A stretch of 38,945 nt of DNA from a virus. A program made the position numbers and the translations under genes. The stretch lies in IMG/VR virus record IMGVR_UViG_3300033148_002752, positions 1-38,945 of that record. One strand, written 5' to 3'. Positions 37,862 to 37,930 of this stretch are shown here, in pieces; position 1 is the stretch's first letter, and each line of letters opens with the position of its first letter. The notes under the pieces are model-generated. The model searched no databases. It was not told the origin of the DNA and saw nothing but the letters and a program-made list of their open reading frames with translations.

Positions 37862-37930
37862 CTCGTCCTTTTTGATAGATTAATGTCGATGCACTCCAAA
37901 GGACGAACTTAAAAAGTGCACCTACATTAA
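37862..37930 (-). ncRNA. RNA hairpin whose loop is complementary to the shared ribosome-binding site
   Basis: In minus-strand RNA, 37930-37913 pairs with 37897-37880: UUAAUGU with ACAUUAA, then one A.G mismatch, G-C, G.U, the 6-bp UGCACU/AGUGCA and two G.U pairs. The 15-nt loop is UUAAGUUCGUCCUUU (37912-37898). It contains UCGUCCUUU, the exact complement of AAAGGACGA at 37871-37863, the ribosome site of the chaperone gene. The G.U pairs favour the minus-strand transcript as the functional RNA. With only 8 nt between the stem and the site, a full pseudoknot would strain the long stem, so partial melting or pairing in trans is likely. Confidence 0.5.

Follow-up and report, generated by a model that had tools for sequence, protein, structure and literature searches.

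The stretch of DNA analysed here, which we call the window, is the complete 38,945-base virus record IMGVR_UViG_3300033148_002752. On its minus strand, a tail tube gene (37958..38380; phrog_280, E 1.5e-33, with tail-tube homologues in annotated phages) lies upstream of a tail assembly chaperone gene (37437..37859, ATG at 37859; phrog_1613, E 1.5e-25). The 98 bases between them hold a small hairpin, a main hairpin and the chaperone ribosome-binding site, AAAGGACGA (37863..37871). As minus-strand RNA, the main hairpin (37875..37935) has a stem of 22 bp, formed by 37935-37913 with 37897-37875, in which a single A37923.G37887 mismatch divides a lower stem of 12 bp (37935-37924/37886-37875) from an upper stem of 10 bp (37922-37913/37897-37888). 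The stem reported in a preliminary description of this DNA (37930-37913/37897-37880) is real, and its arms are the inner 18 nt only of this longer 37935-37875 structure. The arms enclose a 15-nt loop, UUAAGUUCGUCCUUU (37898..37912). The RNA from 37960 to 37835 has a minimum free energy of -34.6 kcal/mol, compared with -20.5 +/- 2.9 kcal/mol for dinucleotide shuffles (z -4.96, with none of 200 shuffles as good). An intrinsic terminator was considered and ruled out, as there is no U-tract (CAAAAAGGACG comes after the stem) and no terminator-like site was found. No consensus promoter was found at the hairpin, and no Rfam family reached its curated threshold in the window; below threshold, Rfam returned only microRNA-precursor look-alikes, which are generic long hairpins.

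Two smaller features flank this element. The small hairpin, which is stable and has a cUUCGg loop (AAGAGCUUCGGCUCUU, 37954-37939, minus strand), lies between the tube stop codon and the main hairpin; counterparts with altered stems were seen in most of the relatives described below, and not in L011 and L012. In addition, an open frame without a start of its own (37500-37273, minus strand) overlaps the chaperone gene's end in a different frame, and probably encodes a second chaperone product made via ribosomal frameshifting, as in lambda G/GT.

Within the 15-nt loop, UCGUCCUUU is the stretch complementary to the chaperone site, and the complementarity that had been noted from the sequence is exact over 9 nt: the loop portion TCGTCCTTT (37906-37898) is the perfect complement of AAAGGACGA (37871-37863). 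Eight copies of AAAGGACGA are present on the minus strand, every one at a ribosome site, and there is no other copy on the plus strand. Besides the chaperone site, which is the predicted universal target, one copy precedes a late-region gene (2873-3175), a 100-aa gene after the major capsid gene (site at 3178..3186), and six precede early genes. These six sites belong to a RecT-like annealing protein gene (AAAGGACGA followed by AC, 16704..16712), an exonuclease VIII-like gene (17600..17608), a DUF1351 gene (18607..18615), a DUF3987 helicase/primase-like gene (followed by ACT, 21260..21268, giving a 12-nt complement), a DUF7659 gene (23017..23025) and an early gene assigned to phrog_824 (followed by AC, 27366..27374), all on the minus strand. 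The capsid-adjacent, RecT-like, exonuclease VIII-like and DUF1351 sites are candidate targets in trans. Near matches add 26124 and 26412, both early, and 13862, so the earlier count of ten other genes carrying the site holds if near matches are included, while the number of early genes among them is about eight instead of nine. Overall, 20 sites have at most one mismatch to AAAGGACGA, compared with 9.4 +/- 2.9 in shuffled sequence.

Of the 16 complements of at least 9 nt that the loop region as a whole has in the window, 11 coincide with sense ribosome sites, which together cover 2% of the sequence; 300 shuffled loops gave a mean of 0.17 complements at such sites and a maximum of 4. Complements at ribosome sites thus exceed chance, in line with the preliminary description, which judged the 9-nt match unlikely by chance, and there is good support for a reason behind the complementarity of loop and ribosome sites. 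The duplex with the chaperone site is not the strongest that the loop can form in the window.

Some of these sites are not independent of one another. Five copies of a promoter-like block, AGGTTACAATTAGA, are found on the minus strand of the window (27399, 26153, 23047, 19344 and 18639), each followed by a short A/T-rich leader and then AAAGGAYG ahead of an early gene. Four early leaders of the AAAGGACGA type and a fifth site, AAAGGATGG, sit behind this block, the DUF1351, DUF7659 and phrog_824 sites among them. From their sequence, the block is likely an early promoter of the window phage, and the five early leaders look like copies of one promoter/leader cassette. Because of this copying, a count of ten genes overstates the independent evidence, and an independent origin of all the shared early ribosome-binding sites was dropped as an explanation. 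Among the five relatives searched, none had the AGGTTACAATTAGA block ahead of genes.

Nine further viral contigs, with tube proteins 79-93% identical to that of the window, have a hairpin at the identical position, and together with the window they form a clade of ten members. Across these ten, 10 stem pairs are altered on both sides and 97% of cells are paired. The covariation score is 0.385, compared with 0.203 for shuffled alignments, and was reached by none of 500 shuffles; it also exceeds all slid controls. The structure scored includes the six loop:ribosome-site pairs, of which five never vary within the clade and one varies to G.U only, and since these pairs hardly vary, the statistic supports the stem and not the loop pairing. 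The loop core, AGUUCGUCC, and the chaperone core, GGACG, are invariant in all ten members, against a varying stem. At the chaperone site, L013 and L014 carry AAAGGACGG, with pairing to the loop retained through G.U, and a C in the loop of L008 shortens the duplex to 7 nt. An invariant loop core on a covarying stem indicates that what is conserved is structure in the stem and sequence in the loop. None of the outcomes that the preliminary description had named as counting against it, among them a stem kept without the loop complement and a loop that drifts while the ribosome site stays fixed, was seen, as the relatives retain stem, loop and complement.

An invariant loop on a variable stem also looks like a site bound by a protein of the phage or its host, with the complementarity a by-product of a favoured ribosome-binding site spread by promoter/leader duplication, and the copies that travel on the duplicated cassette in the window fit this account. 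However, a protein that reads the ribosome-binding site would need the same loop sequence, not the complementary one. Another account starts from the stem: the hairpin would be an RNase III processing or 3'-end protection element that separates the tube and chaperone messages, with the loop complement secondary. Perfect or near-perfect intergenic stems of 21-28 bp suit that enzyme, and most relatives have a small cUUCGg-type hairpin ahead of the main stem. T7 has intergenic RNase III hairpins, for instance before gene 1.2, which resemble the one described here in being long, intergenic and just upstream of a ribosome-binding site; the T7 hairpins are not known to have a conserved loop complementary to ribosome sites of more than one gene. 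Against this account, it is the stem that RNase III reads, whereas conservation within the element is highest in the loop core.

More distant relatives bear on both accounts. A wider search yielded further phages with tube proteins 59-75% identical to that of the window, two of which, L033 and L059, have a hairpin between the tube and chaperone genes (fold z -3.0 and -3.7, respectively) with an unrelated stem and a different loop. The L033 loop, CCUCAUU, matches its own chaperone site, AATGAGG, over 8 nt (AATGAGGA; p 0.0035 against shuffled loops), compared with 6 nt for the window loop against the same site; AATGAGG occurs twice before the L033 chaperone start. The L059 loop, UCCUCAU, matches its own site, ATGAGGA, over 7 nt (p 0.034). 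The complementarity is therefore invariant in the ten clade members, with one weakened, and has changed on both sides in L033 and L059. Co-variation between loop and ribosome site, proposed earlier as a check, thus appears as a joint change in these two phages, while there is hardly any variation inside the clade for it to act on; judged from the sequences, it rests on two distant relatives and one case in trans, described below. Considering that the complement is kept in L033 and L059 though both sequences differ, and that a 17-nt match exists in another relative (G005, below), we regard a protein-binding site as highly improbable. Processing or protection by way of RNase III is improbable as well, if less so, since the loops of the distant relatives match their own ribosome-binding sites.

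Eleven other relatives have no hairpin and a short tube-chaperone gap, L068 and L069 likewise lack the hairpin, and AAAGGACGA is absent from all six long records among the hairpin-less relatives. The tube tree does not distinguish one origin of the hairpin with losses from several origins. Comparison with known phages gave no DNA similarity; protein relatives there are about 30% identical, and in the known phages inspected the tube and chaperone genes are close together or have other genes between them. Alignments of the tube and chaperone found no host or prophage relatives among 84,980 bacterial and archaeal genomes.

How the loop could reach a ribosome site is constrained by geometry. In the nine clade members modelled, the stem is 21-28 bp and only 3-9 nt separate its base from AAGGACG, and because a spacer of this length cannot pass such a stem, a pseudoknot in cis is sterically impossible with the full stem. 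An H-type pseudoknot thus lacks the linker it needs while the stem is intact, and is feasible only if the lower stem opens. This bears on a second way to read the element, as a switch in cis only, in which the loop pairs with its own chaperone site, either as a pseudoknot after the lower stem opens or as an alternative hairpin that excludes the main one; the long stem would then be an anti-sequestor that keeps the gene on, and its opening would turn the gene off. The chaperone site is the only target found in every hairpin-bearing relative, L033 and L059 included, and the two states have nearly the same predicted weight in L033 (outer stem 0.42, loop:ribosome-site pairing 0.58), both of which suit such a switch. 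So do the stacking energies of the upper stem plus loop:ribosome-site pairing in the window clade, -13 and -18 kcal/mol, which come near the -25 kcal/mol for the full hairpin, although these values are rough and taken before any pseudoknot penalty. On the other side, the short spacer prevents pairing with the stem intact, and, for members of the window clade, the nested sequestered form is less favourable than the hairpin by 9-22 kcal/mol. A switch of this kind also leaves unexplained the invariant loop AGUU, which most chaperone sites do not match, and the 17-nt trans match in G005. We therefore consider a purely cis-acting element unlikely, though it is the chief rival of the explanation favoured below. 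The suggestion that the RNA blocks the chaperone site in cis draws strength from the L033 and L059 loops, which match their own chaperone sites, and loses it in the clade, where the simple pseudoknot cannot form on a full stem. With the hairpin closed, both the loop and the ribosome site are open in the models (unpaired probability 0.86-0.99), an arrangement that would suit pairing between molecules. For the window clade, we lean towards intermolecular pairing over pairing in cis, since the folded stem holds the loop away from its own ribosome site.

Candidate targets at other genes were compared across six records, in which ribosome sites were listed with a simple gene caller and all complements of at least 9 nt to the record's own loop were then collected. 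Sense ribosome sites accounted for 11/16 complements in the window, 6/8 in G002, 3/10 in G003, 2/2 in G004, 3/5 in G005 and 1/4 in G001 (P against 300 shuffled loops 0.000, 0.000, 0.023, 0.013, 0.000 and 0.043, respectively). For all five clade records, the longest stretches complementary to the loop are found at ribosome sites, the chaperone site always among them; the top four in G002, the top two in G003, both in G004 and the top two in G005 are so placed. In G001, the early targets do not clearly exceed chance. The small gene that follows the major capsid gene carries the ribosome-binding site AAGGACGA in all six clade members checked, and its counterpart in the L033 record has AATGAGG. 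The most extensive match is in G005, where a 17-nt perfect loop complement, ACCCAAGGACGAACTTA, stands at the start of an exonuclease gene. Here the loop flank and exonuclease leader read GGG and CCC, whereas in G002 the loop flank is UUU and the leader of the orthologue has AAA; the G005 chaperone site does not follow the GGG change. Two leaders of about 87 nt, at 3306-3390 of L045 (G005) and 18311-18397 of L043 (G004), are 92% identical and precede different genes, the exonuclease in G005 and a 66-aa ORF in G004; the ribosome sites at their ends differ in how well they match the loop of the phage concerned.

The early genes present a different picture. RecT-like, exonuclease VIII-like, DUF1351, helicase/primase-like and other genes carry the site in the window, whereas the other clade members have 0-2 early genes with it, and the identity of these genes varies. 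The proposal that the RNA shuts down early translation is accordingly not borne out across the clade, considering also that most window copies ride on the duplicated cassette; with early sites so few and variable in relatives, shutdown is at most a habit of some members. Since these phages generally conserve the ribosome-binding sites of orthologous genes, descent accounts for part of the sharing. Action in trans, the other half of that proposal, gains from the 17-nt complement in G005 and the capsid-adjacent matches in 6/6 members. A wider version, in which the late tail mRNA, as it accumulates, would serve as a phage-wide trans switch that silences early replication and recombination genes and adjusts the levels of low-copy assembly proteins by means of a private AAGGACGA code sparing other messages, seems to us rather unlikely, if conceivable from the sequences.

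The explanation we favour, to which the sequences lead us to give about an even chance, is a conserved late-mRNA hairpin whose anti-Shine-Dalgarno loop blocks AAGGACGA-type sites mainly between RNA molecules. A rigid hairpin of 21-28 bp in the late tail mRNA would present the loop, which would base-pair with ribosome sites of the phage's private AAGGACGA type and block initiation, the loop of one mRNA pairing with the site on another copy or another gene. The universal target would be the chaperone gene just downstream and the second clade-wide target the gene after the major capsid gene, with some members adding early replication or recombination genes. The genes before these two targets encode the tube and capsid, products made in very large amounts in tailed phages. 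Since both targets follow genes of abundant products, the likely purpose would be to limit low-copy assembly proteins while late mRNA accumulates.

Known systems offer partial parallels. The T4 gene 32 pseudoknot serves binding of the gp32 protein, whereas the loop of this hairpin is itself complementary to ribosome-binding sites. Both are mRNA structures near a ribosome-binding site, the former with an established place in translational control (PMC3014915). T4 RegA represses translation phage-wide at the initiation regions of many genes (PMC3014915), as proposed for the loop, but is a protein, while the candidate repressor here is RNA. Closer in kind are RNAIII of Staphylococcus aureus, whose pairing with coa mRNA blocks the initiation complex and gives a duplex cut by RNase III (PMC2837412), and RsaA (PMC3961350), both of which have C-rich anti-Shine-Dalgarno regions complementary to the Shine-Dalgarno sequences of several targets. 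Such complementarity is shared by the phage loop, over a perfect 9 nt at the chaperone and, in relatives, over 9-17 nt at several genes. Whereas RNAIII and RsaA are separate regulatory RNAs of a bacterium, the phage loop sits between two late genes. In icaR of S. aureus, a UCCCCUG motif pairs with the Shine-Dalgarno region of its own message, thereby blocking initiation and creating a substrate for RNase III (PMC3868564); that element is the 3'UTR of a single gene, while the phage element is a hairpin loop between genes and has matches at several others as well. By analogy with RNAIII on coa and with icaR, pairing of the phage loop would repress translation.

In the open-licence literature, we found no anti-Shine-Dalgarno hairpin described from within a structural operon of a phage, and the keyword-matched passages of a 2025 review of phage-derived small RNAs (PMC12197685) describe no such system. 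What is known of translational control in the late phase of phage infection concerns mostly proteins such as RegA. If the favoured explanation is true, the phage sets protein ratios, and perhaps ends the early phase, by an RNA inside its structural operon, and other genomes could be searched by a simple rule, namely for hairpin loops complementary to the phage's own ribosome-binding-site consensus.

A DNA-pattern scan of viral contigs for the loop plus ribosome-binding site returned the same phages and unrelated contigs. The latter were all treated as chance; they include L016 and L026, both near-perfect palindromes of the pattern, and L028, which is a different phage and has a similarly arranged hairpin. 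At 33-81 of L028 (contig 3300024999_001865), AGTTCGTCCTT lies near the hairpin top and is followed by AAAGGACGA with no start codon close behind, a combination that may be due to chance.
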